Shown piece after piece: positions 31,354 to 64,000 of a stretch of 64,000 nt of DNA. The DNA comes from Acidimicrobiaceae bacterium. GTDB taxonomy: Bacteria > Actinomycetota > Acidimicrobiia > Acidimicrobiales > RAAP-2. Made by a program: the position numbers and the translations under genes. How positions within the stretch are numbered: the first letter of the stretch is position 1; every line of letters begins with the position of its first letter. The DNA is taken from positions 367,728 to 431,727 of the forward strand of contig PMOI01000004.1 in the NCBI GenBank assembly GCA_003162475.1. Reading direction: 5' to 3'. Under the pieces are notes generated by a model. The model searched no databases. It was not told where the DNA came from and was given only the letters and a program-made list of their open reading frames with translations.

Positions 31354-32505
31354 TCAGTCGGAGGCATCGGGTGCGTAGGTTTGTGGCTCGGATTCTTCCG
31401 GGCGTCTGAATCGTCGTGGCGACTTTCTGATTGGAGCCGCGTTGACTCCATCAGTGTTTGTGAGCACCGCATCATCGGCGGAAATGGTGAATAAGGGGCG
31501 GTTAGGGTCTGGAAATTCGAGACCGTCTAGCTGGGTCTCGTCGGCACTGTTGCAGTAAACCTCATTGATTGCGTTTCCAACGACGTACTGGTTAATCTGA
31601 CGCAAGAGTAGGTCGTCACTGGTTGTGATCACTCCACATCCAGTGGTTCCTAAGTTTCCTAAGACCAGTGCAGCCTGCCTATCAATTGGCACGATAATTT
31701 GGTCAGCGTTAGCGAGGCCAATCCCTTCGCCGAGTTTCGTGGCGGCAGATTTGAGAATCACTGGACGGTCGGAAAGAACTAGACCCGGTTGTCGAAACCG
31801 GTAGAGCTTGACACTTCGATTGGTGTAAAGCGGTAGAGACCATAGAGCGGCGTCGAACATCGTGACAATGAGTGAGTTTTGGTGGGGCGTCACTTCGATG
31901 TCGTTGAGCGATGTCGCCAATTCAATATATTCATTGACTTCGCTGTCGGTTGGCTCTCTCCCTACATTGTGAAGAAACTGCTTCCGAATGCGATCGGGGG
32001 ATCGCTTGGAGAGGAGATCCAACTTGAAGACTTGATCACCAAGCGCTTCCAAGGTGCGTCTCGTTCGCGGGTCTCGCACGTGAAGAATCGACAACCAAAG
32101 GGAAAGGGTTTGATGATCGTTGGAGTTGAGTAGGTGTTGATCTCGATCAACAAAGTCTCGGAGAACGGCGGCAGCCGTGCTGTCGAGATCTCCGAGGATA
32201 GTTTCAAAGCCAACGTTCTCTCCCACGTCGTCGTCGATGGAGGTGTAGAAATCCGCGACTACTGCAATATCTTGAACTCCACAAATCCGTCTCTTGCTGC
32301 CATCTAGCGGTACGACGAGCAGTTGCGATTCGGCGTTGGCGAACCGCCGTTGAAAGAACTGTGGAATGAAATGATGTCGTTTCGAGTCGCCCGGTTGCCT
32401 TCCGACTCGTGATCTCTGAAGTAAGGCGTCAAGTCGAATTTGGTCTTCAGGAGAAAGTGGCTTACGGGTGTAAGGCGATCCCTCAGGTTCTCCAAGGTGC
32501 TCCAT
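31354..32505 (-). CDS. DUF4238 domain protein
   Basis: SKRHHFIPQFFQRRFANAESQLLVV N-terminus; SDRPVIL motif. Confidence 0.8.
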   Translation of the reverse strand: MEHLGEPEGSPYTRKPLSPEDQIRLDALLQRSRVGRQPGDSKRHHFIPQFFQRRFANAESQLLVVPLDGSKRRICGVQDIAVVADFYTSIDDDVGENVGFETILGDLDSTAAAVLRDFVDRDQHLLNSNDHQTLSLWLSILHVRDPRTRRTLEALGDQVFKLDLLSKRSPDRIRKQFLHNVGREPTDSEVNEYIELATSLNDIEVTPHQNSLIVTMFDAALWSLPLYTNRSVKLYRFRQPGLVLSDRPVILKSAATKLGEGIGLANADQIIVPIDRQAALVLGNLGTTGCGVITTSDDLLLRQINQYVVGNAINEVYCNSADETQLDGLEFPDPNRPLFTISADDAVLTNTDGVNAAPIRKSPRRFRRPEESEPQTYAPDASD

Positions 32506-44681: not shown

Positions 44682-47366
44682 GTGACACCGAAAGAGACCG
44701 AGCGTCAGACCCGCAGGACACGGATCGACCCAAAGCTGCGAGCCTCGGGATGGTCAGTGGTGCCCTTCGTCGATATTCGTCCAAGTGGAGCTGCGCTCGC
44801 AATTGAGGAGTTTGAGACCGATCTCGGTCCTGCTGACTACGTACTCGCCGATCAGGCTGAGCTTCTTGGCGTCGTTGAAGCCAAAAAGCTAACGCTCGGA
44901 CCTCAAGGGGTTCTTCCACAGGCTGAGCGTTATGCCTGTGCGATTGAGAGCGGCGAACAGTATCAGGGAAAGTTCGGCGTCCCATTTATCTACTCGACGA
45001 ATGGCGAGGAGATTTGGTTCCACGATGTCAGGCATGCGCTGAACCGCTCCCGCAAGGTCTCCGCATTTCACACCGTGAAGGCTCTACGCGAGATGCAAGA
45101 GCGCAGCCTTGAAGTCGAGTTAGCGACACTACGTGCAATTCCCATTCAGGAGGGCGTTCGCCCATATCAGGTAGAGGCCAACACCGCCATTGAACAAGCA
45201 ATCACCGATCGCCATCGCAAGATGATGGTGACGATGGCGACGGGCACCGGCAAGACACTCATGACAGTTAACGAGATCTACCGACTCATGAAATCGGGAG
45301 TAGCTCGGCGTGTACTTTTTCTTGTCGATCGACGGGCACTGGCAGCACAAACCGTACGCGCCTTCGCCAGCTTTGAGGCAGAGCCAGGTCTCAAGTTTGA
45401 CAAGATCTATCCTGTCTACTCGCAGCGATTCCAACAGACTGACTTCGACGAAAGCGAGAAGTTTGACCCAAACGTCATGCCGAACTCGTTGCTCACCAAT
45501 CCGAAGCTTGGTGATGCCTTTGTCTATGTTTCCACGATCCAAAGAATGAGCATAAACCTGTTCGGTAGCGAAGCCGGTATCCACTTTGGTGAGGGCGATG
45601 CAGTGGACGGAGATGCGAAGAAGCTCGACATACCGATCCACGCATTTGATCTGATCGTGGCCGACGAGTGCCATCGTGGCTACTCTGCCAAGGAACTTTC
45701 AATCTGGAGATCGACACTCGACTGGTTCGATGCGACCAAGATTGGCCTGACCGCCACCCCTGCGGCACACACCATGGCGTACTTCGAGAACATGGTCTAT
45801 CGCTACGACTACGAGCGAGCTGTGCGCGAGGGCTATCTCGTTGACTACGACGTGGTTCGAGTGGCGAGCAATGTCCGAATGAATGGTGTATTCCTTCATG
45901 AAGGGGAACAGGTTGACGAAGTCGATACTGATACGGGTGCTCGCCAACTCGACTTTCTCGAAGACGAGAGACTCTTCGATGCATCAGAAGTTGAGCGAAA
46001 TATCACGGCACCAGATTCAAATAAAAAAATCCTTGAAGAACTGAAGCGTTATGCAGAGGAGCATGAAGCTATAACGGGGCGCTTTCCCAAGATCTTGATT
46101 TTCGCAGCGAATGACCTTCCTCACACTTCTCACGCTGATCAGCTTGTGAATCAGGCGCGAGAGATTTTTGGACGAGGCGAAGCTTTCGTATCAAAAATCA
46201 CAGGACGTGTTGACCGGCCTCTGCAGAAAATCCGAGAGTTTCGTAATCGCCCGAACCCCAAGATCACCGTTACAGTTGACCTGCTCACGACGGGTGTTGA
46301 CATACCCGATCTCGAATTCCTGGTCTTTCTCCGACCCGTGAAGTCTCGAATTCTCTTTGAGCAGATGCTCGGTCGAGGAACTCGCCTGTCTCCGGATCTG
46401 GTGCCCGGTAAGGATCATTTTGTCGTTTTCGACTGTTTTGACGGAACTCTTTTTGAGTATTTCCGCAGCACCACAGGGATGACCGTCGAACCTCCAGAAG
46501 GCGATGGCAAGGCCGTCGAGCAAATCGTCGAGGAGATCTGGCAGAACACTGACAGGGACTACAACACCAAGAGATTGGTGAAGCGCCTGCAACGCATCGA
46601 CAAGAACATGAGCGGCGATGCGCGTGATCTCTTCGCTCGCTTTGTGCCAGACGGGGACGTTGCCCGTTTCGCCGAAGATCTGCCAGCAAAGATTCGAGGT
46701 GAATTCGCCGATACCATGGCAATACTTCGTAATTTCGAATTTCTTGAACTGCTCACCAAGTATCCCAGGGCGGAACGCGTCTTCATCGTGGCTACCGGAG
46801 TTACGGACACGGTTGAATCCGAGTGGCTCATCAAGGCCGGGGTCGGGATGGAATACAAACCTGACGACTACCTCAAGCTCTTTGAGCAGTTCATTGATGA
46901 CCATTCCGACGAGATTCGTGCGGTTCGAATTCTGCTTTCCAAACCAGCGGATTGGGGTGCAGGACCGCTTAAAGAACTTCGTGATGCACTACTTCACGCA
47001 CCTGAGCACTTTACGGAGACGAACCTTGAAAAGGCATTTAGGGCTACGCATCACAAAGCGCTCGTTGACATCATTTCGATGGTGAAACGGGCGGCTACCG
47101 AAACCTCACCATTATTGACTGCGGAGGAGCGCGTCAATTCCGCCGTAGCAACCGTTTCAGCCGGACGTCACCTGACAGAAGAGCAAACTAAGTGGATGGA
47201 ATACATCCGTCAACACCTAGTCCAAAACCTCTCTATTGAACCTAACGACTTTGACATCATCCCGGTCCTCGCCGATCGAGGGGGATGGGGTCGAGCAAAT
47301 CGGACATTTGGCGGCCACCTTGCTGAGTTACTTGACGAGCTGAACATGGAACTGGTGGCCGCATGA
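44682..47366 (+). CDS. hsdR: type I restriction enzyme R subunit
   Basis: N-terminal nuclease VVEAKK, Walker A MATGTGKT, VADECHRGYS, FLRPVKSRILFEQMLGRGTRL; GTG start. Confidence 0.95.
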   Translation: MTPKETERQTRRTRIDPKLRASGWSVVPFVDIRPSGAALAIEEFETDLGPADYVLADQAELLGVVEAKKLTLGPQGVLPQAERYACAIESGEQYQGKFGVPFIYSTNGEEIWFHDVRHALNRSRKVSAFHTVKALREMQERSLEVELATLRAIPIQEGVRPYQVEANTAIEQAITDRHRKMMVTMATGTGKTLMTVNEIYRLMKSGVARRVLFLVDRRALAAQTVRAFASFEAEPGLKFDKIYPVYSQRFQQTDFDESEKFDPNVMPNSLLTNPKLGDAFVYVSTIQRMSINLFGSEAGIHFGEGDAVDGDAKKLDIPIHAFDLIVADECHRGYSAKELSIWRSTLDWFDATKIGLTATPAAHTMAYFENMVYRYDYERAVREGYLVDYDVVRVASNVRMNGVFLHEGEQVDEVDTDTGARQLDFLEDERLFDASEVERNITAPDSNKKILEELKRYAEEHEAITGRFPKILIFAANDLPHTSHADQLVNQAREIFGRGEAFVSKITGRVDRPLQKIREFRNRPNPKITVTVDLLTTGVDIPDLEFLVFLRPVKSRILFEQMLGRGTRLSPDLVPGKDHFVVFDCFDGTLFEYFRSTTGMTVEPPEGDGKAVEQIVEEIWQNTDRDYNTKRLVKRLQRIDKNMSGDARDLFARFVPDGDVARFAEDLPAKIRGEFADTMAILRNFEFLELLTKYPRAERVFIVATGVTDTVESEWLIKAGVGMEYKPDDYLKLFEQFIDDHSDEIRAVRILLSKPADWGAGPLKELRDALLHAPEHFTETNLEKAFRATHHKALVDIISMVKRAATETSPLLTAEERVNSAVATVSAGRHLTEEQTKWMEYIRQHLVQNLSIEPNDFDIIPVLADRGGWGRANRTFGGHLAELLDELNMELVAA

Positions 47367-48781
47367 CCGATGTCGTCAACAAACTTTGGGGCTTCTGCCA
47401 CACGCTCCGTCATGACGGTGTGGACTATGGCGACTACATCGAACAGCTCACGTATCTCCTGTTCCTGAAGATGGCTGATGAACGCGGAGTTGCCGTACCA
47501 GTCGAGACTGACTGGCCCTATCTTCGCAAACAATCTGGAACGGATCTCCTCGACGCCTATATTGAGGCACTGCGAACGCTCGGAAAACAACCCGGCATTC
47601 TTGGTGACATCTTCGGCGGAGCTCAGAACCGATTCACAAATCCCGTAAACCTCGGGAAGCTCATCGGCCTGATTGACGAAACCGAGTGGATATCGATCGA
47701 CACCGATATCAAAGCTGAAGCATTTGAAGGACTCTTGGAAAAGGCGGCCAGCGAAGGGAAGAAGGGCGCGGGTCAGTATTTCACTCCACGAATTCTCATC
47801 CAGAGCATTGTTCGCTGCGTTAAGCCCGACCCGAGGGTCAGCAAGGGCTATTCAATAGACGATCCCGCATGCGGTACTGGTGGCTTTCTCATTGCTGCTT
47901 ATGAGTGGCTTAAGGATGAGACCGGGGGCGCATTCGACCGCGAAACTGCAAAGAAAATTCGTGGCGCAACTTACTTCGGGCAGGAACTCGTCGCCCGCCC
48001 TCGGCGCTTGGCGCTGATGAACATGTACCTCCACCAAGTTGAGCCTCATATCACGCTCGCTGATTCGATTTACGAGGTTCCGCCAGCCCAACGCTACGAC
48101 GTGATTCTTACTAACCCGCCATTCGGGACTAAAGGAGCAAACCAGGCACCCGACCGTGAGGATTTTGTTGTCCAAACCAGCAACAAGCAACTCAACTTCA
48201 TCCAGCACGTACTCACGATTCTCAAGCCGGGCGGACGGGCTGCAGTCGTCGTTCCTGACAATGTTCTATTTGCTCAACAGGCGGGAGAAGTATTCAAAGT
48301 GCTGATGGAGGATTGCAGCGTTCACACCGTCCTGCGTTGTCCCCGTGGCACATTCAGTCCCTATACGGAAGGGACTCAAACAAACGTCATCTTCTTCACA
48401 AAAGGTAGGCCGACCGAGACAGTTTGGATTTACGACGGCCGAGCCAACGTTCCGAAGATAACGAAGAAGAGCCGGCCGCTTACAGCGAAGCACTTCGCAG
48501 AGTTCGAGCTGTGCTTCGGTGAGGATCCCAATGGGCTAGCTTCACGATCTGGTGGCGACTCGATACAAGATCGTTGGCACAGCTTTTCCATTGCTGAAGT
48601 GAAGGACAAGCACTACAAGCTTGACGCTTTCAAATGGCTCCGGGACGAGGAGATCGACGATCCTGATGAGCTTCCTGATCCCGAGGAACTCATAACGGAA
48701 GTAATGGAAGAGTTACAACTCGCGCTCGACGACCTCGCGGACATTCAGCGACTGCTCGACAGCAATGGGAGTGAGGCGTGA
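47363..48781 (+). CDS. hsdM: type I restriction-modification DNA methyltransferase (M subunit)
   Basis: GQYFTPRILIQSIV, DPACGTGGFL, ILTNPPFG. Confidence 0.95.
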   Translation: MTDVVNKLWGFCHTLRHDGVDYGDYIEQLTYLLFLKMADERGVAVPVETDWPYLRKQSGTDLLDAYIEALRTLGKQPGILGDIFGGAQNRFTNPVNLGKLIGLIDETEWISIDTDIKAEAFEGLLEKAASEGKKGAGQYFTPRILIQSIVRCVKPDPRVSKGYSIDDPACGTGGFLIAAYEWLKDETGGAFDRETAKKIRGATYFGQELVARPRRLALMNMYLHQVEPHITLADSIYEVPPAQRYDVILTNPPFGTKGANQAPDREDFVVQTSNKQLNFIQHVLTILKPGGRAAVVVPDNVLFAQQAGEVFKVLMEDCSVHTVLRCPRGTFSPYTEGTQTNVIFFTKGRPTETVWIYDGRANVPKITKKSRPLTAKHFAEFELCFGEDPNGLASRSGGDSIQDRWHSFSIAEVKDKHYKLDAFKWLRDEEIDDPDELPDPEELITEVMEELQLALDDLADIQRLLDSNGSEA

Positions 48782-50040
48782 GTTGGGATGCTGTTGAATT
48801 GCCGGAGGGATGGCGGATGGTCGCCACTGGCGACATTGCCAAGGTGGTCGGCGGTGGAACGCCGAAGACTTCAATCACAGGAAATTTCACAGACAGTGGG
48901 GGGCATCCGTGGGTCACTCCTGCAGACCTGACTGGCTATAACGACAAGTACATTTCGCGCGGACGGAGGAACCTGACCGATCAAGGTCTTAAGGAAAGTT
49001 CGGCCACGTATATGCCCGCAGGGACGGTTCTATTCTCCTCGCGAGCGCCAATCGGGTATGTTGCTATCGCCGCAAACCCAGTCACGACAAACCAGGGTTT
49101 TCGAAGCTTCGTGCCTTCGGAAGAGGTCGATTCAGAATATCTCTATTACGCACTGAAGCTTCTTCGTGCTGATGCAGAGCAGCTTGCGAGCGGCACCACC
49201 TTCGCTGAGATTTCGGGGACAAACGCGAAGAAGCTTCGTTTTCCTCTCGCCCCGAAGGAATCGCAGCACCAGATTGTGAACCTGCTTGACACAGTTTCTG
49301 ACCGACGTGAGACTGCGACGAACCACCTTTATGCGTCTCGTCAAGCTATCGAAAAGTACCGACACGCTGTTCTTGGTGCTGCTTTTCGTGAAGCAAGCCA
49401 AGCCTGTGAAGAAGAAGGGTCTGTGCTCGATCTGGCGCAAGTTCTTCGTGAGCCTCTAAAGAATGGATACTCGGCACGACCCGTGACATTCGAGACTCAA
49501 TTTCGTGTACTTACATTGACAGCTACTACTAGTGGATTATTTGACGGTCAGCACTTTAAATACACCGATGAGGTGTTCCCAGACGATTCGCCATTCTGGC
49601 TGATGCCCGGCGATGTGGTCATTCAACGAGGAAACACAGCTGAGTACGTGGGCGTTCCCGCCATATACGAGGGAGGACCGAGAGAATATTTGTATCCAGA
49701 CCTCATGATCCGGGCACGAGTGCGCGATGACATTGATCCGCGCTACCTGTGGTACATGCTCCTCGCACCTCAATCGAGGAAGTTCCTTCGCGATCGTGCC
49801 ACTGGCTCAGCGGGCAATATGCCCAAGATCAATCAGAAGATTCTGAATGTCGTCCCAATACCCGTGCCCCCAATCGAGACACGGAAAGCAATAGTGATGA
49901 ATCTCGACGTGAGAATGGCGGTAGCAGCGGCAACACTTAGGCGGATTCATGAAGGAGTCGGACACGTTGACCGCGCCTGCCAGGCGGTAGCTCGTAAGGC
50001 TTTCAGTGGGAGCTTGACGACTAATCCTTCTTACCGTTAA
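48778..50040 (+). CDS. hsdS: type I restriction specificity subunit
   Basis: Two TRD-type segments, GGGTPKTSITGNF and GSAGNMPKINQKILNVVPIPVPPIE. Confidence 0.93.
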   Translation: MSWDAVELPEGWRMVATGDIAKVVGGGTPKTSITGNFTDSGGHPWVTPADLTGYNDKYISRGRRNLTDQGLKESSATYMPAGTVLFSSRAPIGYVAIAANPVTTNQGFRSFVPSEEVDSEYLYYALKLLRADAEQLASGTTFAEISGTNAKKLRFPLAPKESQHQIVNLLDTVSDRRETATNHLYASRQAIEKYRHAVLGAAFREASQACEEEGSVLDLAQVLREPLKNGYSARPVTFETQFRVLTLTATTSGLFDGQHFKYTDEVFPDDSPFWLMPGDVVIQRGNTAEYVGVPAIYEGGPREYLYPDLMIRARVRDDIDPRYLWYMLLAPQSRKFLRDRATGSAGNMPKINQKILNVVPIPVPPIETRKAIVMNLDVRMAVAAATLRRIHEGVGHVDRACQAVARKAFSGSLTTNPSYR

Positions 50041-51616
50041 TGGGCGTGACGCGGGTCACGCCATTGTCATCCGTTTCAAGAGCCACATCACCGTAAGGCT
50101 GGAGAACCATCTCTTCACCTCCATCGTCACTTCTCCAGTCAGTGACAGCACGGGCAATGAGGGCATCCGATGTCCACGACGATTCAATCATCCACAGGTC
50201 ATATCCGGATTTGTGACTGTCAACCGCGTGCCACGAGCGCAAACTGCAGACGAGAAATTCGGTGTCACTGAGTATGTGGGGGATCCATTCCGGCATCGTG
50301 TTTCTCTTGGATCCATGCCCAAGTCTGAAAGGATTCTTAACGACTATGCCGACGACCCATTCTGAATCAACGAGGATCTCAGAATCTGGCGAAGCAACGA
50401 CAAATGCGACCGGAACGACTGAACGCAACTTCGTATCCCTCTTCGGATGTCCACGGGTCACTGACTTGTCAATTCTGGGACGAAAATGAATCCGTTCGTG
50501 AATTCCGAGTCGCTCGCATAACTCCCGGAGTGGATTGAGATCCAGTGGTATTCCCACCAGCTGGAAGGAAAGTTCGGCGTGCCAGATGGAGCGGTTCTTG
50601 TCTGCCGAGATAGAGGCAGTCAGTGTGTAGTAGCCATCATCGATTTCGTTGAAGTAGCACATCTCTTCGGAATGATGCGTTTCCATTCCTTCGTATCGCG
50701 TTGCCCAACTTTGGAGGGCTTCGCACAGTGATTGAGTTCCAAACCCATGCCAGTTGGCATGGGCCTGTTGAATGCTCCAACTTCCATTCGTGTTCACCCA
50801 GCCCATCTCCGCCATTTGGCGTATGACATCGAGTAAGCCGTTCTGACCATCAACTGACACTGCGATGTCAACCGAGACTCCAGAACCTCCAGCGGACGCC
50901 CAGTCAATGTCTGGCATTTCTGGAACGAACGTAAACATTCCAAAACCGCCGCCGGACGTGAACCACGAGGATCGGTGTCCGTCGGGATAGAGGAACTCAG
51001 TTTTCGATGAGGGCAAGTCGCCAGGTTTCACCTTCTTGATGTGCGATTGATGCTTAGGAGTCTCGTCGAGTAACACTTCACGATTCACTAACAAAGCCTG
51101 TTTCTTGTCGTGGAGAAGTTTGAGAAAATTGCCGCTCCATCCGAGTGCGTTCTCAATCTCAAGACCGGACACGAGAAGTACAGGACGATCCGACTTGTTT
51201 TTGACCTGCACGATCACGTCCTTGGTGAAGCCCACGTAACTCACGAGTATTCCCGTTACTGATGCAGGAACCGCAGCAAGGCGAGTAAAGAGTGAATCAA
51301 CGTCGTCGATATTCGCGGGATCTTTACGCCACTTTGTTTCGATGAGGTATATCTCGGTCCCGCGAGATGCAAAGAGATCGACCTGGCGTGGCCTTGCAGC
51401 TCTTGCCTTCTTCTCGACTTTGAAATGCTGAGCTTGAAAAAGCTTTCCAACGAACGGCTGGAAATTGTAACCACGTCGATGTGGATCCGTTTGATGCTTG
51501 AGTGCCTCGAACTCCTTAGGAAGGGCGGAAGAGTCTCTCATCTTCGGGCGTACTTGCTTGTCATAAATTGATAGTACGATAGGGGTGTGTCGAGCAGCTG
51601 CGATCCGCTTAAACAC
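50021..51616 (-). CDS. PD-(D/E)XK restriction-endonuclease-like protein with long uncharacterised C-terminus
   Basis: RRGYNFQPFVGKLFQAQHFKVEKKARAARPRQVDLFASRGTEIYLIETKWRKD: D...ExK motif. Confidence 0.75.
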   Translation of the reverse strand: MFKRIAAARHTPIVLSIYDKQVRPKMRDSSALPKEFEALKHQTDPHRRGYNFQPFVGKLFQAQHFKVEKKARAARPRQVDLFASRGTEIYLIETKWRKDPANIDDVDSLFTRLAAVPASVTGILVSYVGFTKDVIVQVKNKSDRPVLLVSGLEIENALGWSGNFLKLLHDKKQALLVNREVLLDETPKHQSHIKKVKPGDLPSSKTEFLYPDGHRSSWFTSGGGFGMFTFVPEMPDIDWASAGGSGVSVDIAVSVDGQNGLLDVIRQMAEMGWVNTNGSWSIQQAHANWHGFGTQSLCEALQSWATRYEGMETHHSEEMCYFNEIDDGYYTLTASISADKNRSIWHAELSFQLVGIPLDLNPLRELCERLGIHERIHFRPRIDKSVTRGHPKRDTKLRSVVPVAFVVASPDSEILVDSEWVVGIVVKNPFRLGHGSKRNTMPEWIPHILSDTEFLVCSLRSWHAVDSHKSGYDLWMIESSWTSDALIARAVTDWRSDDGGEEMVLQPYGDVALETDDNGVTRVTPINGKKD

Positions 51617-53010: not shown

Positions 53011-56000
53011 CTACAAATCGAGTCCGAAGTCGTGGTCGGGCGGCTCCAAGGGACCTTCGCCGGAGAACACGTAGTCGGGTTTCGCCGATGCAGTGAGTGC
53101 GTTGGCTCTCATTGCAGCACCGAGGACTCGACCTCGCTGAGCCTCTTGTTCGTGGTTAACAGGTGCATCGTCGAAGATCGTGTCAGGGTTGTCAATACCC
53201 CAGCGATCTAAGAAGGTCGCGCCAGCGAGGACTTCCCACATCCATTGTTGGTAGCTTTCGTCCGCATCGGGAGCGTCGCCGAAGTCCGACACCCAGGCGT
53301 CGCCGCGTTCAATAGCCATCGTGGCGAGTTCGCAGGCCCGCTGCTCGATGGCGTCGGCCCGGTCGTTCAGCGCGCGCACGACATCGGGATCGGTGATCCC
53401 GCTGGGACGCGCAAAAATGCCGGCGACGAAGTCGCTCGCACTCGGGGCGCGGTAGCCGACGCCCGTCAGGTAGCAATCAATGCGGTGGTACAAGACACTG
53501 GCGACGTCCTCGGCGTCATCGAACGAACGACCCGTGACCAGCGTCGGGAGATCGGTGCCACTATCGAAGCCCCGACTCTCTGCGTCTCGTAATTGCGCGA
53601 GCAGCGCTGAGTACGCGGAGGAAGTTTTAGCTTGGACGAGCTCAGCGTCGCTGAGTCCCGCCTCGCGAAGTGCTTTCTCCCAGCGTCCGCCTTCGGCCAC
53701 CGCGACGATAGTGTCGTACTCGGCGACCAGCGCGGCGATCGACTGGGTCTGGGATCGACGGATCAGGTCAGTAGCCGACACGTCGGCTCCCTCGTGGCGC
53801 AGTACCCCGGCGAGCACGTCGAGGGCGCTCTGCGTCTCGGCCATCCCGTCGTGGCCAGTCGACGGATCAGGGTCGTAGTGGGTGTCCACGTAGAGGTGGT
53901 TGGACTGCGAACCTCGCGTCAGTGACACGTACAGCACTTCACGGGTAGAAGTGGGGCTCGCGAAGGCGTGGGCGGTATCAACGGTGCGCCCCTGGGCGCG
54001 ATGGGCCGTCGAGGCGTAGGCCAGTTCGACGTTCTTGGCGACGTAGTTGGCCGGCAAGACCACCGAGCCGTGACCACTCACCCGGGTGACAGTCATGGAG
54101 CCATCCCGGTGCATAGCCGCGACGGTCCACACGTCGCCGTTCTTGACCCAACTGGTGTCTGTTCTCAGGCGGCGGTCGTTCTCGCGGGTGACGACGAGGT
54201 CGTTCACCCCCGCCGTCATGGCTCCCGCGACGTCGATCCCCTCTTCGCTGACGTAGCCACCGGTGACCCGAGCGCTCCGGGCGCGAGCGTTGAGCTCGTT
54301 GACTGTGGCGGTGTCGCTGGCCAGCATCAACGAGTGCAGCCCATGATCGCTGTCACTCTTCCAGGCGTCGTAGAGCGCGTCGAGCATGTCGTCACGGGTG
54401 CCCTCTGCGACGCGCCCGTGCGCGGCGTAAGTCGCCAGAGCCGCGTGGGTGCCGAGGCGCACCCCGAGGCTGGCCTCCTTCTCCCACGCCGCCGCGAAGC
54501 GGCGGACGTCAGCCAGCGTGGGCGCATCCTCTGCGCGTTCTCGCACCAGGGTGCGGAACATTCCTCCGGCGTCCACACTGGAGAGTTGGGCTCCGTCGCC
54601 GACGAGGACTACTTTGGCCTTCGCGTCGAGGGCGGCCGACGTCAGTTCATCCAGCGCGAACGTCGAGGCCAAACTGGCCTCGTCCACCACGACCAGTTGA
54701 CCGGCGCGAAGAGTCCAGTGCGCCAGGGCCTCCTCGCGCCGGCGAATCTCTTCACGCAGTCGGGGGCTAGGACGTCGTCGCGCGAGGGTGCCCCGACGGG
54801 CCCGCTCGCGAAGTTCTCGGAGCTCGCGAACCCGCTGGCCGTGCTGGCGGTGTTCGTAGAGCCACTTGGCGAGATTGTCTGTGTCAATGCCCATGTCCTC
54901 GCCCAGAACTTCGGCGGCGGCGGCCGACGGCGCGAGACCGATGACCGAGCCGGCATTGTGCTCCGCCTCCCAGGCGGCGCGGAGTCCCGCCATGGCCGTC
55001 GACTTGCCCGTGCCCGCGGGTCCCACCAGAAGATCGAGCGAGCGACCAGAGGTCGTGATCTGCTCGACGCAGTGCGCCTGGTCGATCGAGAGCGTGAAGG
55101 TTCGCCCAGGGAGTCGCCGCTTGGTCGTGGCGAGCACGGTAGCGCTCGCCACCACGGGCGCGTCGAGGCGCTCGGCCGCATCGAGCAGACGGGCTTCGGC
55201 GTTGAGCAGCGTCGTCGAGGTGTAAATCCGGTGGCCGCTGCCTTCGAACTTCGAGCTGCCGTCAGCACGCAGCAAGAAGCGAGGCGTGTGGTGCAGGTGG
55301 GGCGTGGTGATCAACAGCGCCTGGGTCACGGCCAGGTCTGTCGCGCGAGTAGACGTGAGAAGGCGCTCAGCCGGCTCGCGAAAGCGCACCCCCTGCATCT
55401 GGCGAAAGACCTCTGCTTGGAGGTTGGCCCGAGAGAACGTCGGGCGCTTGGTGCTCACGACGTCGAGGGCCGCGTGAGCGACGTCGAGCAGGATCTCGTC
55501 CTCGAAATCGTTGCTCGTGAAGACTGCGACGTCCCGACCCCCCAGCTCGTGGACCCACGACAGTGGTTCGTCGTCGAGGTAGAGCGCGGCTCGAGTGGCC
55601 CACTCTTTCGTCAGATCTCCGAGGTTTCGACCCTTCTTCGCCCGTCGGGTAGCGAGCGTGGCCGTCTGGCGAAGTTTGATCACTTCGACATCGGTCGGGG
55701 CGCGACCGTGATCGTCCTCGAACTGGATGATCAGTCGATTCTTAGCGTCGACGATGGCGGTGGTGCGCTGGGAGAACTCATCCATGAGGACCGTGGAGAC
55801 ACCCGCCACCTCCCACTTCGGGGCGGTGCTGGAACGCCGGGTGTGGGCCTCCCACTCCCAGCCGAGTTCGCCGGTCAGTAGATCAGAGAGCACACCCTGG
55901 TGCATTTCGGAGAGCATCACCGTGGAGGCGAAGAGTTGACGGCTATCGAGGGTGCGCCAGAGGCCGTCACTGGTGGCCTGGGCCCGATTGAGCACGACCA

Positions 56001-56577
56001 CATGGTCGTGGAGTTGGGGATCGCCGTCGCGCGAATCGAAGTGGGTGAAGCTCGCCGCCACCACTCCCACGATGTCCTCCTCGACGCAGCCTTGCTGGCC
56101 GGAGCGAGTGTGAAACACGTCGCGCTCGGCGTGGGCGAGGACCTCGGCGAGGGCCTGTTGGTGGCACCGGTAGATCACTTGGCGAGTCTCTCTGTCGGCC
56201 AGAGCCCAGGCCACCGACACGCTCTTGGAAGGGCTGAACGTGAGGTCGAAACCTCCGACCGCCTTCGCCCCCGGAGCCCTGCCGAGTTTCTCCCCGGTGA
56301 GGGGATCGGCGCAGTCCTGGAGCATCCGCTGGAGGTGCTCTGGCGTGACGGTCTGCCCGACGGCAACGCCACGACCCTCGTCGAGCCCGACCAGTCCGGC
56401 ACCGAGAAAGACTCCCGGGGGAGTGCCGGTCTCTGAGTAGTAGCGAACGAGGTCCGACTTGTCGGTGCCTTCGGGACCGTCGCCGACGGCGATGGATTTG
56501 AGGAGGTACTTGTAACCCGCTCCGATGCTGAGACGTCGAATCGTCATCATGGGGTCGACGCATCCTTCTCGGTACAA
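53011..56577 (-). CDS. MobF (TrwC/TraI-type) relaxase-helicase
   Basis: GGFDLTFSPSKSVSVAWALAD, histidine triad DPQLHDHVVV, Walker A GPAGTGKST, VVDEASLAS, STAHRAQGRTVDTA. Confidence 0.93.
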   Translation of the reverse strand: MYREGCVDPMMTIRRLSIGAGYKYLLKSIAVGDGPEGTDKSDLVRYYSETGTPPGVFLGAGLVGLDEGRGVAVGQTVTPEHLQRMLQDCADPLTGEKLGRAPGAKAVGGFDLTFSPSKSVSVAWALADRETRQVIYRCHQQALAEVLAHAERDVFHTRSGQQGCVEEDIVGVVAASFTHFDSRDGDPQLHDHVVVLNRAQATSDGLWRTLDSRQLFASTVMLSEMHQGVLSDLLTGELGWEWEAHTRRSSTAPKWEVAGVSTVLMDEFSQRTTAIVDAKNRLIIQFEDDHGRAPTDVEVIKLRQTATLATRRAKKGRNLGDLTKEWATRAALYLDDEPLSWVHELGGRDVAVFTSNDFEDEILLDVAHAALDVVSTKRPTFSRANLQAEVFRQMQGVRFREPAERLLTSTRATDLAVTQALLITTPHLHHTPRFLLRADGSSKFEGSGHRIYTSTTLLNAEARLLDAAERLDAPVVASATVLATTKRRLPGRTFTLSIDQAHCVEQITTSGRSLDLLVGPAGTGKSTAMAGLRAAWEAEHNAGSVIGLAPSAAAAEVLGEDMGIDTDNLAKWLYEHRQHGQRVRELRELRERARRGTLARRRPSPRLREEIRRREEALAHWTLRAGQLVVVDEASLASTFALDELTSAALDAKAKVVLVGDGAQLSSVDAGGMFRTLVRERAEDAPTLADVRRFAAAWEKEASLGVRLGTHAALATYAAHGRVAEGTRDDMLDALYDAWKSDSDHGLHSLMLASDTATVNELNARARSARVTGGYVSEEGIDVAGAMTAGVNDLVVTRENDRRLRTDTSWVKNGDVWTVAAMHRDGSMTVTRVSGHGSVVLPANYVAKNVELAYASTAHRAQGRTVDTAHAFASPTSTREVLYVSLTRGSQSNHLYVDTHYDPDPSTGHDGMAETQSALDVLAGVLRHEGADVSATDLIRRSQTQSIAALVAEYDTIVAVAEGGRWEKALREAGLSDAELVQAKTSSAYSALLAQLRDAESRGFDSGTDLPTLVTGRSFDDAEDVASVLYHRIDCYLTGVGYRAPSASDFVAGIFARPSGITDPDVVRALNDRADAIEQRACELATMAIERGDAWVSDFGDAPDADESYQQWMWEVLAGATFLDRWGIDNPDTIFDDAPVNHEQEAQRGRVLGAAMRANALTASAKPDYVFSGEGPLEPPDHDFGLDL

Positions 56578-56666
56578 CCCCTTGTAAGGGCCACCGTAGC
56601 ACTAGTGCCAGACGTGTGAGCCAACAAATAAAAGTGAACGCATAGAGCGGGGAAAGAAAGCGGACT

Positions 56667-56737
56667 GAGAAGCAGGAGGTAGCAAGGCCGAAAAGGGAAG
56701 TCGGATGGAGATAGAGAAGCAGGAGGTAGCAGAGCCG
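56667..56737. repeat. imperfect direct repeats (24 bp, 47-bp period) upstream of relaxase gene; oriT candidate region
   Basis: gagaagcaggaggtagcaaggccg (56667-56690) and gagaagcaggaggtagcagagccg (56714-56737). Confidence 0.6.
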
Positions 56738-56803
56738 ACAGAAGGACGAAAGAGGGGAGGGATATTTAAGATGATGTGGGCCAGGACAACGACGGCGACG
56801 TTG

Positions 56804-56831
56804 ATAGGTCTGTCCCAATAGGTCTGTCCCA
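56804..56831. repeat. 14-bp tandem duplication
   Basis: ATAGGTCTGTCCCA twice in tandem. Confidence 0.7.
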
Positions 56832-56854
56832 ACAGGCTCGATGGAACCTTGATC

Positions 56855-56914
56855 CCCTCGGTTGTGGGTTCGATTCCCCTGACCTCCACTCTGACCTCCA
56901 CTCTGACCTCCACC
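56855..56914 (+). repeat. tRNA/tmRNA-like 3' end fragment followed by triplicated 12-bp unit
   Basis: cctcggttgtgggttcgattccCCTGACCTCCACT: T-loop GGTTCGATTCC and acceptor-like end; CTGACCTCCACT at 56879, 56891 and CTGACCTCCACC at 56903. Confidence 0.5.
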
Positions 56915-57087
56915 GTCGCGTCTGAAGACTCCGTCAGGCAGTCCCGAACGCTCCCTTAATTTGAGTCGTACGCTCGATTCTCAGTTGATTGTGAGAGCGT
57001 TCATGACCTTGCCCACTTGAATGCCTCAAGCGGGTGCTGTGTTACAGGGAGCGCACCCGGCAAATGTTGTTCGCCGACCCGCTACTT

Positions 57088-59289
57088 CTACGGATTACTG
57101 ACAACTGCGGATAGCACTTCCACCATGCCCACAGGCTTGAAATTTTCGGTCACCATACTTTCGATAATGAGGTTCACGAATCCTTCGTACTTGACCAATT
57201 CGATACAGTTGTCGCTCACGAACTTTTTGAGCACAGCCCGACCTGGAAAAGTCTTAACCCATTCACCTTGATCAAGCGCAGTCTGAAACCCATTTCGAAT
57301 TTCGCTCTCCCGAGACTCGAGCCAAGTCACGTCAGCAAGCTCCGACTTAGCCCCTTCGATCCGTTCATAGCTACCAATTATCGAAGGCAATAATGCATTT
57401 GCTGGCGATGCTAAATTTCCACCTTTGATTACGACGCTCTGCACGAGCCGATCGTTAACCTCCGCCTGCAGCCGCCGCTGAACCAAGTCTTCGAGCGTCC
57501 CCGCGGCGGCCACCTTCAGTGCTGCCTCGACGCTCGCAACACTATCGAGCGCCATCGACCCTACCGACGACAAAGCTTTCAATATGTGGGGTGCAGACAA
57601 TAGATAATTCTCAATGTGATATGCATCCCACGACAGTACGTGCGTCCCAGTTTGCATCTCAGCAGAGGGCGTCGAATCACGATCCGTGATGGCGTAGTAC
57701 TTGTCAGTCAGACCGACCTGTTCTGCGGTTCTAGCGAGCACGCCATACAAGTCATTTACCCGACCTTTTGAACCGCCGCTAACCAAAGTAACTCGTTCTG
57801 CCAGGCCGGGGAACAGACGCTGAACCACAGTTACATCGAATTCGGTACCTGCCTCACCTTCGAAGATAAGCACCTTGGCAAATGGTCGGTAGGCGGCAAG
57901 ATCTCCCACAAGATCAACCAGTACCGCTTGGAGCTCATCTTCAGCGACCAGCAGAACCTGATTGTTACCAGGCTCGATATTGACGGCATTCGTCATGTGG
58001 TAGACGGAGTAATTTGGATTACCCACAGCATGCCTCAAGAGGGCATCGGAGTGAGTAACCAGCCAGACCTGGTTGTCGTTAGATTGCGCCAGATGACGGT
58101 AGTAGAAGTCGGGCAAATTTACCAACAATGCTGGATTAAGGTGCATTTCTGGTTCATCGAAGAGGATCGTCGAATGGTGAGGCGTAGAGTTCCTCAATCG
58201 GAGATACCCGTACAGGATCTCCTTCTCGCCAGAACTGAGATCATTTATGTCGTGGCGCTCTCCAGTAGACAGCTCAACTGGGAATGACATATTGCCTTGC
58301 TCATCAATTTGAATCCCGAGGTAACTCTTATGGGGGAAGAATGTCCGAAAGAGTTCTTTTAGAGTTTCATTCAGACTCGAAGCGTCTGTGGAAGCCACAC
58401 CGGCCTCTTTGGCGACAAGATCCCGAACATATGTGGCTACGAGTTCGGACTTAACATTCGCATACTTAGCTTGGTAATTGTAGAGGGTTTGAGTCCGGCG
58501 CTGCCCTTCGATTGCCTTAAGGTCAAGGTTGATGCCGCCCAAACCCTCACGTGTATAAATCCTTTGTGAACTATGAAAGTCTATGATCCCCAAATCATCT
58601 GGTTGAAAAGTCTGAAAGACGACTCGCGCAACAAGCGAGTTTGAGATGTTGATTGCGCTATTCGGTTCTATTGACAGACTCAGAGAATGGGTTGATGCGT
58701 TCAACTCCGTTGCGAGAAGCGCTGCCGTTTGTTGAGTCTGCTGAGCGACTACCGGTGCGAGTTGAGGATATTGCGCCGTATACGCCAGATTGCTGAATAG
58801 AAATATCTCAAGTGGTTGTCTCGTAACTTCCGCCCAGATGATCGGCTCGAGTACTTGGTATGCGTTGTCCAGAAGATAGCGTTTCTCATCGTCCGCCAGC
58901 TCGATCGTTGCCGATATCCGAACCGGAAGAGTCTTATTACGAAATAGGGCCGACATATCGTTTGGTGCCATCTGAAACTCGCCAAACCACTGCATAGATT
59001 CATTAGTCTGATAACCACCGTAGGCACTCTTTAGCAGCCGAATTGCATCCAGGACCTGTGACTTCCCACACCCGTTCGGTCCGGCGATTATCACCATCTT
59101 TGCTAAGGAGTTCACTTCAAAACGCGCGATGGCTCGAAAATTGGTTATCTGGAGTTGCTGGAACCGCACGGCGAAGAGTTCCTTTCCTCCGAGAATCGTT
59201 GACCGGATGCTATAACACCTGGGTTGCTTCAGTTGCTGTAGCCGCGCGGATGCTGTCGAACGCATTTCTATCGACCGATCCCAACTCAA
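57088..59289 (-). CDS. AAA ATPase fused to TOPRIM/DUF4435-like domain (OLD-like; candidate merged PARIS AriA-AriB)
   Basis: RFQQLQITNFRAIARFEV, IIAGPNGCGKS, LSSGEKEILYGYLRL, STILFDEPEMHLNP; C-terminal KVLIFEGEAGTEFD, AITDRDS, WDAYHIENYLL. Confidence 0.85.
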   Translation of the reverse strand: MSWDRSIEMRSTASARLQQLKQPRCYSIRSTILGGKELFAVRFQQLQITNFRAIARFEVNSLAKMVIIAGPNGCGKSQVLDAIRLLKSAYGGYQTNESMQWFGEFQMAPNDMSALFRNKTLPVRISATIELADDEKRYLLDNAYQVLEPIIWAEVTRQPLEIFLFSNLAYTAQYPQLAPVVAQQTQQTAALLATELNASTHSLSLSIEPNSAINISNSLVARVVFQTFQPDDLGIIDFHSSQRIYTREGLGGINLDLKAIEGQRRTQTLYNYQAKYANVKSELVATYVRDLVAKEAGVASTDASSLNETLKELFRTFFPHKSYLGIQIDEQGNMSFPVELSTGERHDINDLSSGEKEILYGYLRLRNSTPHHSTILFDEPEMHLNPALLVNLPDFYYRHLAQSNDNQVWLVTHSDALLRHAVGNPNYSVYHMTNAVNIEPGNNQVLLVAEDELQAVLVDLVGDLAAYRPFAKVLIFEGEAGTEFDVTVVQRLFPGLAERVTLVSGGSKGRVNDLYGVLARTAEQVGLTDKYYAITDRDSTPSAEMQTGTHVLSWDAYHIENYLLSAPHILKALSSVGSMALDSVASVEAALKVAAAGTLEDLVQRRLQAEVNDRLVQSVVIKGGNLASPANALLPSIIGSYERIEGAKSELADVTWLESRESEIRNGFQTALDQGEWVKTFPGRAVLKKFVSDNCIELVKYEGFVNLIIESMVTENFKPVGMVEVLSAVVSNP

Positions 59290-59846
59290 ATGTCAGCGAC
59301 CATGTCAGCGACGGGGGCGAGTCCAGCTGAAACGTGCTGAATCTTAATTCTTCTCTAGCTCTTTAATCCCTTGGCTTTACGAGTTAGCGCGAACTGTTAT
59401 GAACACGTCCGGACGGCATGACACGCAAGAGGTCACGGACTAACATTCCGAGCCGCCCAATCCCGGACTCGCCATTAGATCGTGCACGTCGGCCCACGGT
59501 CTCGAACCCACACGGCCTAATCAAGCCGCCAGTGAGGGTGCAGAACCGTTAAGTCGGGCCCCCGACACCAATCAGACCTATTGGAACCGTGACGTCGGTC
59601 AACTGACGCGAGCGCTCTGTAACCAAAGCAGTAGTTGGCATCGTTAAGAACTGACTACTGCGAACCCGTTGGTTGACTCGACTGTTCGGAACGAACACGA
59701 TGAAGCGGTCGGTAGCAAGATGTTGTGAATACGTTGTTACAGGATTCTGCTAGCGATAGATGAGGAGGCACGACCATGTGGACGACGAGTGACATTCAGC
59801 GACTATGTGAGGTTTACCTTGAGTCCTTCATGCCGCTTGGTCCAAA

Positions 59847-61040
59847 TTGCGATCTCACATGACCGGTGCCCGTCCGCCAGTAGTTATCGAGCTCGACGTC
59901 AAGGGCACTCAGCGCCTGATCTCGCGACTTGCAGTCAGTGAATTAGTGAAGAGGATCTTGCTGCGCCATGTGTCGCTCGCGCTAGCGTGCGTCGCTCTGG
60001 GTGCCGCGTTGATGTCCCAAGCTCCGAGTGCGGGTGCCGCGGCAACAACGGTGCCTTATCCGATGCTCGGCACGAACCTCACTACGGAATACGTTGCTGC
60101 GGGAACGCAACCATCGATCACCGTGACTGCGAGTGATCCCACCGACACTCCCAATACGGGAGTATCAGAGTACCTGTGGGGCCCCCTGCAAGTACCGACG
60201 TCCGGTGAATGTTCCACCCTTACGCTCGCTCAATTTGACATGGAGAGTCCGGGTGTCGGGGTCTATACCTCGATGATCCCTAATTTGTTGGGGACAGTAG
60301 TTAGCGCCAGCGGTCCTGCAACCATCGTCGGCCCTGTCGCCTCAACTGCGGGATGTTATGGGTGGACTACTCCCACAACGGGGACTGCAGAATCAACGTC
60401 ACCCACCACGACAACGACGACCACAGTGCCGGTTGCCGTAAGGACGACCATCACTTGCATGCGCGGAAGGACCACAAAGAAGGTGGAGGCGTTAAGTCCG
60501 AAGTGTCCCCGCGGTTACAAGAGAGCCTCGACAATTTCATGCGTCAGGGGATTAGCGACTAGGAAAGTGACGGCGGTAAGTCCGAAGTGTCCCCGCGGTT
60601 ACAGGGAAAAGAAGAGTGCTCCAAAGTCACCGGTGACCACGACGAGCACGACAATCCCAGCTCCCACGTCGGGCCTGTCCTCGTGTGGGGACTGTGGAGT
60701 CGCGGCATTAATTAATGCTGACCGCGCCACTCTTGGCCTGTCTCCTTTGGCACTGATCAACAATGCCTCCGGTGTGCAACTGAGTGCCCTTCTTTTCGTG
60801 TCAGCTTCCGATGATCCGGGCATAGCGGCGTGGAACATTGCGGCAACTGACACTCCGAGACAAGCCGCTATAGCAGCGGTAGATGCTTGGTGGGCTGAAG
60901 GGCCTGGGTTCGCCGCCGATGGTCACGGTCACTATGACGCGATCGTGAACCCGAACTACACCTCGATCTCCGTCGCAGTTGCGTTCCAACCAGCGGGTAC
61001 GCCACTCGGGCCTTGTTGGGTTGTCGTCGCAGGGCTATAA
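59847..61040 (+). CDS. secreted protein: Cys-containing repeats plus CAP/SCP-like domain
   Basis: Hydrophobic signal, TTTTTT linkers, two C(M/V)RGxxT(K)KV..SPKCPRGY repeats, LINADRATLGLSPLALIN...NPNYTSISVAVAF CAP-like core. Confidence 0.72.
   Translation: MRSHMTGARPPVVIELDVKGTQRLISRLAVSELVKRILLRHVSLALACVALGAALMSQAPSAGAAATTVPYPMLGTNLTTEYVAAGTQPSITVTASDPTDTPNTGVSEYLWGPLQVPTSGECSTLTLAQFDMESPGVGVYTSMIPNLLGTVVSASGPATIVGPVASTAGCYGWTTPTTGTAESTSPTTTTTTTVPVAVRTTITCMRGRTTKKVEALSPKCPRGYKRASTISCVRGLATRKVTAVSPKCPRGYREKKSAPKSPVTTTSTTIPAPTSGLSSCGDCGVAALINADRATLGLSPLALINNASGVQLSALLFVSASDDPGIAAWNIAATDTPRQAAIAAVDAWWAEGPGFAADGHGHYDAIVNPNYTSISVAVAFQPAGTPLGPCWVVVAGL
60488..60603 (+). repeat. 32-bp direct repeat encoding SPKCPRGY module
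   Basis: ggcgttaagtccgaagtgtccccgcggttaca (60488-60519) and ggcggtaagtccgaagtgtccccgcggttaca (60572-60603): one mismatch. Confidence 0.85.
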
Positions 61041-61056
61041 ATGTCTTAGCCGCGTG

Positions 61057-61536
61057 CTACTTGTTCTGCAATTCGCCACGTTTCGAATCAAATGAGTCAG
61101 AACTCGTATCGGTGGATCGACGCCGGGGATTGGTCGAGAGCCACGGCGCGGGGGGTGTGCTCACTACCCGCACTCGGCGCAACGCTTCGTAAGCCGCTCG
61201 AGTTCCCTCCAAAGCGACCTCAATGCGACCTACGCCGCTCACCAGCACCTCGCACTGCGCCCGAAGTTCGGCGATTTCACCGTGAGCGGCCTCGAGCTCG
61301 GCCTTCAACCGGTCCACCTCACTGTCGGCAACGTAGGAACGTCCTCCCCGGAACGGTTCATCCAGAATTTCAAGTCCGGCGTTATCGAGAGCGGTCACGC
61401 TCACGAAGATGCGCTTGTTTTGATCTTCCCGGGGTTCGGGTACCAATACACCGGCCTCGATCAAGCGTCGAAGCGTCCCGTGCGACTTGTGGCACGCCCG
61501 GGCAGCTTCACTGAGGGTGAGCAGTTTCGTATCCAT
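61057..61536 (-). CDS. helix-turn-helix (MerR/excisionase-like) DNA-binding protein with coiled coil
   Basis: LLTLSEAARACHKSHGTLRRLIEAGVLVPEPREDQNKRIFVS followed by helical VDRLKAELEAAHGEIAELRAQ. Confidence 0.75.
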   Translation of the reverse strand: MDTKLLTLSEAARACHKSHGTLRRLIEAGVLVPEPREDQNKRIFVSVTALDNAGLEILDEPFRGGRSYVADSEVDRLKAELEAAHGEIAELRAQCEVLVSGVGRIEVALEGTRAAYEALRRVRVVSTPPAPWLSTNPRRRSTDTSSDSFDSKRGELQNK

Positions 61537-61706
61537 TGGCTAATCATACCAGGCTGCTGTTTGACTGTAAAGCATGCTATTTCCTCCAATTAGATACTCT
61601 TCCAGTGAGTTCATCGGAGAAATGTGGAGGAATTGGGAATTCTTTCGTGTAGATGAGTATACATATGCTACTCTACGCCACAGTAACTTCTAGTGTGAGG
61701 GATGAA

Positions 61707-64000
61707 ATGGCGAATCAGCCGAATGAAGGAAACAGATTTCATGCACAATGGATATGCAAAAGTTTGCTCGTTCCATTCATCTGTGTAGCCATGCTCGCCG
61801 CGGCAATCGGCCTCGCCGCCGCCGCGAACACGGCGGGACCCGGTGACGGTGCCTACGGCGGTTACACCACTCACTACTGGGGTGCCTATGTTCTCGATAC
61901 CACCGACGGCACGCTGTACGGCTACTGCGTCGATCCCGGCAAGGCCAGCCCCGACAACCCCGCGATCACCCACGACACCTACAGCGTCTCCACTGCCTCC
62001 AACGCCTCGGAAGCGGCGCTCGGCTGGCTCGCGACTCAGACGGGCAGTGGCGCACTCGGCCTGAGTGCGGATGACCTCGCTGGCGCAATCTCAATGGTCG
62101 CGTACAACACGTATGGCGGTGGCAGCATCGACGACGGTCCCGTGTCCGCGGCATCGATCAACACCGTCACCAACTTCATCGACAACTATCCCGGTACCTG
62201 GACCATTGGCGCGACGCTCCAGGCCGCGCCCGCGGGTGGGTACGTTGCGGGCACGACCTACACCGGCGAGGTGCACGTTGCGTCCGGCAACGGCAGCGGT
62301 GTCCCTGACGTTCAGATCCTCAGCCCCGCCGTTGGCGGCGCGGGGGAGTTCAGTTCGTTCGCCTGGACAAATGCCACGACGGGGGGTGGCGGCAATGCAT
62401 CCTTCACGTGGACCGACGACAACACCGGTGACTCCTTCTCTGCCAGCTTCACTTCCCGGTACGGCTTGCCTACGGGTCTCGCCGACATCGGTCTGGCTCC
62501 GGCCGGCTCAGGTGGTCAAACGATGTTGCTTGGGATTACTCGCAACAACGCCACCGCCACTGTCAACGGCACAACTGCCACCGGAACCATTGTCGGCGCA
62601 CCTGTCACGGTTTACCTGATTAAGGTGGCATCCGGCGACCCCACGGATACTCCAATCGCTGGCGCTGTCTTCAACATTGCCAGCGCCAGCGGAACTGTGT
62701 TGTACACCGGCGTCACTACTCAGACATCTCCCGTTGAGATCGATACCTTGATCGAGTCAGCCAACAATGGTGAGCCGATGCAACCCGAGACCGTCTACGA
62801 GGTGATCGAGACCGCGGCGCCTCCGGGCTACACGATTCCGACGGACAACGTGACCTCGTTCACGACGCCCGCCAGTGGAGGGACCATGACGGTCACGGTG
62901 GCCGACCCGGCCTCCGTGGTCACGCCGCCGCCTTCTAATACCGCGTCGGTGTACATGATTAAGACGTCGACTACCGATCCCACCGATACCCCGATCGCCG
63001 GCGCGGTGTTCAACCTGGCCGACGGCAGTGGCAACATTCTGGCCACGGGCATCACGAGCGCGACAACTCCCGTGGAGATCGATCAACTCGTGCCCGGCGG
63101 TATGACTGATGGCTCAACCTACGAGCTCATCGAGACGGCGGCTCCCGTCGGTTACTACGTTCCGGTGAACAATGTAACGACGTTCACGATTCCCGCCGGT
63201 GCGACCACTGACGAGGTAATCGCCGCTGACCCTCCCGTCCCAAGCCCCACCGTCGTGACGCAGGTCACTTCGGACAGCGGACTGCCGGGCACGGTGTTGA
63301 GCGACGTCGTCACGGTTTCGGGCGACGACGGAGAGCCCGGCGTGATCCTCGCAACGTTGTACGGCCCGGTGGCGCCTTCCGCCACCGGACGTTGCAACGA
63401 TCTGACGCTCGCCCAGTGGGAAGCGGGAGCGACCCAGACATTCACCACCGACATAACGGGCGACGGCACCTATACCCTCACCGGCCCGACCGCCGCGTCG
63501 GCGGGTTGCTACGGCTGGAGCGACACGATCACCCTGACCCCTTCAAGCACCACGGGCTCATCCCCACCCACCTCACCCACTGAATCGACCGCCATTACCG
63601 TGCCGGTCTACTTCATCAAGGCGTCGTCGACTGACCCCACGGATACCCCGATCGCTGGCGCAGTCTTCTCCTTGGCCGACTCGAGTGGTGACATTCTGGC
63701 GACGGACATTACGAGCGCGACGACACCCGTGGAGATCGATCAACTCGTGTCGGGAGGAATGCCCGAAGGTGCGACCTACGAGCTCATCGAAACCCAGGCT
63801 CCTCCCGGCTACTACGTTCCAACCGGCGATGTGACGACGTTCACGGTGCCGATGGACGCGAGCGCCTACACGGTGCTCACTATGGCGCCCACGACGGCGA
63901 TCGCCCCCAGCCCCAACAATGGGGTACGCCCCACCGGCCAACTCTTCGCCGTCAGCTGTCCGAGCGCCACGACGTGCATCGCCGTGGGCATTGACGACTC
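61707..64000 (+). CDS. large secreted surface protein with SpaA/prealbumin-like repeats (continues past window)
   Basis: Missing from ORF track because it has no stop in the window. ATG 61707: MANQPNEGNRFHAQWICKSLLVPFICVAMLAAAIGLAAAANTAGPGDGAYGGYTTHYWGAYVLDTTDGTLYGYCVDPGK...; three repeats VY(L/M/F)IK..(S/T)(G/T)DPTDTPIAGAVF...PVEID...YE(V/L)IET.AP.GY. Confidence 0.85.
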   Translation, partial: MANQPNEGNRFHAQWICKSLLVPFICVAMLAAAIGLAAAANTAGPGDGAYGGYTTHYWGAYVLDTTDGTLYGYCVDPGKASPDNPAITHDTYSVSTASNASEAALGWLATQTGSGALGLSADDLAGAISMVAYNTYGGGSIDDGPVSAASINTVTNFIDNYPGTWTIGATLQAAPAGGYVAGTTYTGEVHVASGNGSGVPDVQILSPAVGGAGEFSSFAWTNATTGGGGNASFTWTDDNTGDSFSASFTSRYGLPTGLADIGLAPAGSGGQTMLLGITRNNATATVNGTTATGTIVGAPVTVYLIKVASGDPTDTPIAGAVFNIASASGTVLYTGVTTQTSPVEIDTLIESANNGEPMQPETVYEVIETAAPPGYTIPTDNVTSFTTPASGGTMTVTVADPASVVTPPPSNTASVYMIKTSTTDPTDTPIAGAVFNLADGSGNILATGITSATTPVEIDQLVPGGMTDGSTYELIETAAPVGYYVPVNNVTTFTIPAGATTDEVIAADPPVPSPTVVTQVTSDSGLPGTVLSDVVTVSGDDGEPGVILATLYGPVAPSATGRCNDLTLAQWEAGATQTFTTDITGDGTYTLTGPTAASAGCYGWSDTITLTPSSTTGSSPPTSPTESTAITVPVYFIKASSTDPTDTPIAGAVFSLADSSGDILATDITSATTPVEIDQLVSGGMPEGATYELIETQAPPGYYVPTGDVTTFTVPMDASAYTVLTMAPTTAIAPSPNNGVRPTGQLFAVSCPSATTCIAVGIDD

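Follow-up and report, generated by a model that had tools for sequence, protein, structure and literature searches.

How can a defence system that works by releasing a toxin still function when the sensor and the toxin are one polypeptide chain? In the two-gene PARIS system a hexamer of AriA holds three AriB molecules until Ocr or other triggers cause their release (PMC12409363), and once free, AriB forms dimers that cleave tRNA-Lys and other tRNAs (PMC12409363, PMC11455837), an activity that the AriB mutation E26A abolishes. Fused, single-gene PARIS has already been published (Rousset et al. 2022, PMC9122126) and has the PADLOC model PDLC02981 (AriAB). Such a protein cannot release its toxin unless the chain is cut, and so it directly tests what the mechanism essentially needs; it also tests how PARIS is related to the single-chain OLD nucleases, a question that was left open by a review (PMC10568477). 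We analysed here a minus-strand gene in a 64,000-nucleotide stretch of DNA (the window), in which an initial annotation had seen a candidate merged PARIS protein, an AAA15-like ATPase joined to a DUF4435/TOPRIM nuclease.

The gene and its product

A stop-free minus-strand ORF of about 732-733 aa, opening with TTG, does occupy 57088-59289 as had been annotated, and all of the motifs that were quoted for it (GPNGCGKS, LSSGEKE, ILFDEPEMHLNP, EGEAGTEFD, AITDRDS and WDAYHIENYLL) are present in it, but the gene itself is more likely to be 57088-59169. The true start is most likely the GTG at 59169, since the AriAB profile and the starts of the relatives begin there and the codon is preceded, at 10-16 nt, by a purine-rich GGAGGAAAGGA (a rather long spacing for a ribosome-binding site). 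The resulting protein is 693 aa long, and the AriAB profile has 694 positions. The features are as follows:

57088..59169, minus strand: fused PARIS gene AriAB from its most likely start (693 aa plus stop, GTG; full-length PADLOC AriAB match, relatives' starts)
59180..59190, minus strand: purine-rich GGAGGAAAGGA, possible ribosome-binding site (read from the sequence)
57943..59169, minus strand: AriA-like ATPase domain of ABC type at the N-terminus, residues 1-409 (Pfam AAA_21 and AAA_15 pass their cut-offs; structural match to PtuA with Z 20)
59059..59082, minus strand: Walker A GPNGCGKS, residues 30-37 (G30, N32, G33, G35, K36 and S37 invariant among relatives)
58219..58239, minus strand: ABC signature LSSGEKE, residues 311-317 (conserved among relatives)
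58132..58167, minus strand: Walker B and D-loop ILFDEPEMHLNP, residues 335-346 (D338, E339 and P340 invariant)
58051..58053, minus strand: H-loop histidine H373 in THSD (conserved among relatives)
57091..57942, minus strand: C-terminal AriB-like DUF4435/TOPRIM domain, residues 410-693 (DUF4435 in 9 of 10 members; AriB Z 13.0 and 12.7)
57835..57861, minus strand: TOPRIM acidic motif EGEAGTEFD, residues 437-445 (E437 and D445 conserved)
57673..57693, minus strand: TOPRIM Asp-x-Asp motif AITDRDS, residues 493-499 (D496 and D498 conserved)
57598..57630, minus strand: DUF4435 hallmark WDAYHIENYLL, residues 514-524 (W, D, Y, H, E, N, Y, L and L invariant in the C-terminal alignment)
56626..59637, no strand assigned: variable slot holding AriAB (flanks conserved in the congener locus L068, other genes in the slot)

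Profile matches identify a fused PARIS protein

The PADLOC AriAB profile matches the protein over essentially its whole length, at 576 bits and E 2.8e-173 (ORF residues 42-729 to profile positions 3-691 of 694), and is by far the best match, ahead of AriA (66 bits), GajA (51 bits) and Old (43 bits). This supports the proposal of a merged PARIS, and its nearest relatives among the profiled families are proteins of defence systems rather than non-defence ATPases. Pfam places AAA_21 (60.8 bits) and AAA_15 (55.5 bits) in the N-terminal half, both above cut-off. DUF4435 scores 19.6 bits on this protein by itself, below the Pfam cut-off of 27, and is matched by the C-terminal domains of nine of ten family members (best E 5.8e-12). 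The family profile finds the AriA chains of the solved PARIS complexes 8ux9 and 8v45 at E 0.003. No relative was found among PDB sequences either with the C-terminal profile or with the AriB of a two-gene pair from Lichenicola (below). The EG, G-x-K, D-x-D and IEN landmarks of the C-terminal domain align one by one with those of the AriB of a two-gene PARIS-like pair, in a local alignment with E 8e-4 and an hhalign probability of only 24.

The alignments also show the ATPase and TOPRIM catalytic residues kept in relatives that are 38-44% identical, and judged by this conservation the catalytic Glu and Asp-x-Asp of the nuclease (E437, D496 and D498) are intact. E437 is likely to be the equivalent of AriB E26, to judge from its motif and its position in the predicted structure.

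The predicted structure and the resemblance to OLD nucleases

Is the C-terminal half also folded like AriB? When it is predicted alone (pLDDT 83.1, pTM 0.77), VIA-align superimposes the model on AriB of 8ux9 (chain A; Z 13.0, 230 residues, rmsd 6.6) and of 8v46 (chain D; Z 12.7, 222 residues, rmsd 5.1), and ranks OLD TOPRIM domains (Z 8.2-9.1), TsOLD and GajA after them. Foldseek with the same model gave nothing significant (best E 0.04, to an unrelated protein), so that the AriB match depends on the second-look aligner and carries a large rmsd. The C-terminus is TOPRIM-like in its predicted fold, and the case for AriB as its closest match is good without being overwhelming. For the full-length prediction (pLDDT 74.3) Foldseek ranks the retron Eco8 OLD protein and GajA first, and the matches listed by VIA-align cover the ATPase half only; among them this half is closest to PtuA and to SMC/Rad50 heads, and AriA is not one of them.

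These rankings raise the question of whether the protein works in the manner of class 1 OLD and GajA nucleases, as a single-chain ATPase-TOPRIM enzyme cutting invader DNA rather than tRNA. OLD and GajA have the same domain order, they stand at the top of the full-length Foldseek comparison and OLD TOPRIM domains come next after AriB in the C-terminal one, and the review cited above does not decide whether fused AriAB and class 1 OLD are distinct. On the other hand, the Old and GajA profiles score less than a tenth of the AriAB profile, AriB is the nearer fold, some 4 Z units ahead of OLD and aligned over a greater length, and the DUF4435 landmarks are present. We therefore consider OLD/GajA-type action unlikely, though it is the most serious of the alternatives to an AriB-like nuclease.

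Neighbouring genes

To one side of AriAB the window carries a type I restriction-modification (R-M) operon (44682-50040), an Mrr-type nuclease (50021-51616) and a TrwC-type relaxase-helicase (53011-56577). The last of these corrects one detail of the initial annotation, which had no helicase next to the gene and argued from this against Gabija: a helicase domain does adjoin, some 0.5 kb downstream and encoded by the same strand, and it belongs to a relaxase and not to GajB. Could this relaxase-helicase take the place of GajB in a Gabija-like pair? Apart from its position and orientation the evidence runs the other way. The gene encodes a relaxase of the MobF type and is carried by 16 of 61 congeners, whereas of the 397 genomes sampled from the order only two have AriAB (the window's own and one other); the two are lost or exchanged independently, L068 having the relaxase without AriAB; and no GajB match is present among the scanned neighbours of the relatives. 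Such a pairing is extremely improbable.

No neighbour other than AriAB itself is common to the loci of the different relatives as a partner would be, so AriAB is probably a stand-alone system. Among 20 scanned neighbours of relatives the only known defence genes are a type II R-M pair, which directly follows the relative at locus L052; together with the type I operon of the window this is consistent with AriAB serving as a backup to restriction.

The relaxase gene is an orphan and has three copies in this genome. The flanks of several TrwC copies (the window, L072, L073, L068 and L077) carry differing defence genes: DISARM DrmA/DrmB with a methyltransferase, a type IIG R-M with a GmrSD-like gene, a type I HsdR, and an OLD-like ATPase with a helicase-nuclease. 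The TrwC gene may mark a family of defence-carrying islands. Elsewhere in the window are a DUF4238 protein (31354-32505; in the paper describing PARIS, PMC9122126, a DUF4238 protein confers T7 resistance), a small MerR/HTH protein (61057-61536) with a weak match to the mads_1 model (E 2.3e-7), and two 75-nt direct repeats, 75% identical, within a CAP-domain gene (60445-60603).

AriAB lies in a variable slot and has a patchy distribution

In blastn comparison with L068, window positions 53105-56625 and 59638-64000 both match at 85%, and between them L068 has a sigma-factor cassette instead of the AriAB slot contents, so that the two genomes hold unrelated genes in a 3-kb slot. The conserved flanks with other contents, and the presence of AriAB in so few genomes of the order, indicate that it is accessory cargo, which was probably gained by horizontal transfer. 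Genome G715 was considered as a clean empty site and rejected, since its match on one side is an inverted peptidase region that is 69% identical. Just inside the slot, on the plus strand at 56850-56915, is a tRNA 3'-end-like relic, GTGGGTTCGATTCCCC, followed by tandem TGACCTCCACTC units, which is possibly a former integration site. Contig C6 of the assembly has a tRNA-Ala(GGC) gene near 107010, and contig C11, which also carries another relaxase copy, has an exact copy of its 3' part near 65350; the two have the look of attachment sites for an integrated element.

A search of 296 genomes of the phylum with PADLOC AriAB found a true member only in the window's genome, although nearly all of the genomes gave a match through the P-loop alone. 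Thirteen loci with relatives come from named genomes whose titles all place them in the Proteobacteria, and plasmid-borne relatives occur in Lichenicola and in the cyanobacterium Kovacikia. Two scans of viral contigs found no relative, and phages gave only distant, partial ATPase matches. The tree of the family has long branches, and the branch order around the window protein is not resolved. On the Lichenicola plasmid (L037, 2013-8567) the fused gene lies about 2.6 kb from a two-gene, PARIS-like ATPase/DUF4435 pair, whose ATPase finds AriA at E 8e-18. In several relatives the gene is interrupted by a frameshift, by an inserted segment or by the end of a contig; in Tianweitania (L051, 10001-13421) the protein is split into N- and C-terminal parts by a segment with an ORF on the opposite strand. 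Such breakage is common for costly accessory genes.

This distribution bears on whether the protein defends against phages at all or is a housekeeping ATPase-nuclease comparable to the archaeal OLD-like Cran1. Our literature search found no experiment on any fused AriAB, phage experiments on the family included, and for one ATPase of the OLD family a role in the cell cycle is known (PMC12796447). The patchy presence, plasmid carriage, variable slot and broken relatives are, however, marks of dispensable cargo, and we regard a housekeeping role as very unlikely.

How could a tethered PARIS work?

The architecture, the family membership, the intact catalytic residues, the lack of a common partner gene and the variable-cargo position are what the analysis shows. 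We think that the protein is probably a stand-alone, single-chain PARIS in which the ATPase senses a phage protein and a tethered AriB-like nuclease stops translation. Such a system would work as follows: The N-terminal ABC ATPase would keep the C-terminal AriB-like TOPRIM nuclease inactive until it detects a protein of the phage; as for E. coli PARIS, this trigger is probably an anti-restriction protein or a DNA mimic. The nuclease would then become active and stop translation, most likely by cutting host tRNA, and the infected cell would cease growth before phage release. The type of trigger, the tRNA target and the abortive outcome we infer by analogy with two-gene PARIS. The activation step must be different, and would be a rearrangement or dimerisation of the TOPRIM domains within or between assemblies rather than release (unless the chain is cut). 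This activation in place is an inference without precedent, which we favour over release because the single chain is equipped for the same chemistry and not for release. Whether fused AriAB, activated in place, then forms a separate mechanistic branch between PARIS and the OLD nucleases, which might differ in its trigger or in the RNA that it cuts, is a more tentative matter, and we hold it to be possible but somewhat short of an even prospect.

Comparison with known systems

Class 1 OLD and GajA share with the window protein a single chain with the ATPase before the TOPRIM domain, a feature that is also common to fused PARIS, but their profiles score much lower, their C-terminal fold is less alike and GajB is not present here. 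The OLD effector of retron Eco8 (type I-B) is the same kind of ATPase-TOPRIM chain and the top Foldseek match of the full model; Pfam found no reverse transcriptase among the main ORFs scanned at 29-62 kb. Two-gene E. coli PARIS (8ux9, 8v45, 8v46) has the same AriA-type ATPase, AriB-type TOPRIM and conserved Glu and Asp-x-Asp. Because the window protein is one chain, the release and dimerisation of AriB cannot apply to it unchanged, and it has one effector per ATPase where two-gene PARIS has three per six.

The closest known system is fused PARIS (AriAB, PDLC02981): its profile matches over the whole length, the domain order is the same and there is likewise no partner gene. Fused proteins of this kind are already in defence libraries, and the main value of the window protein is as a test case for tethered PARIS. 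It is a divergent further AriAB of a kind already known, only 38-44% identical to the fused relatives found and with EGEAGTEFD where most of them have EGGGDSDFD or similar.
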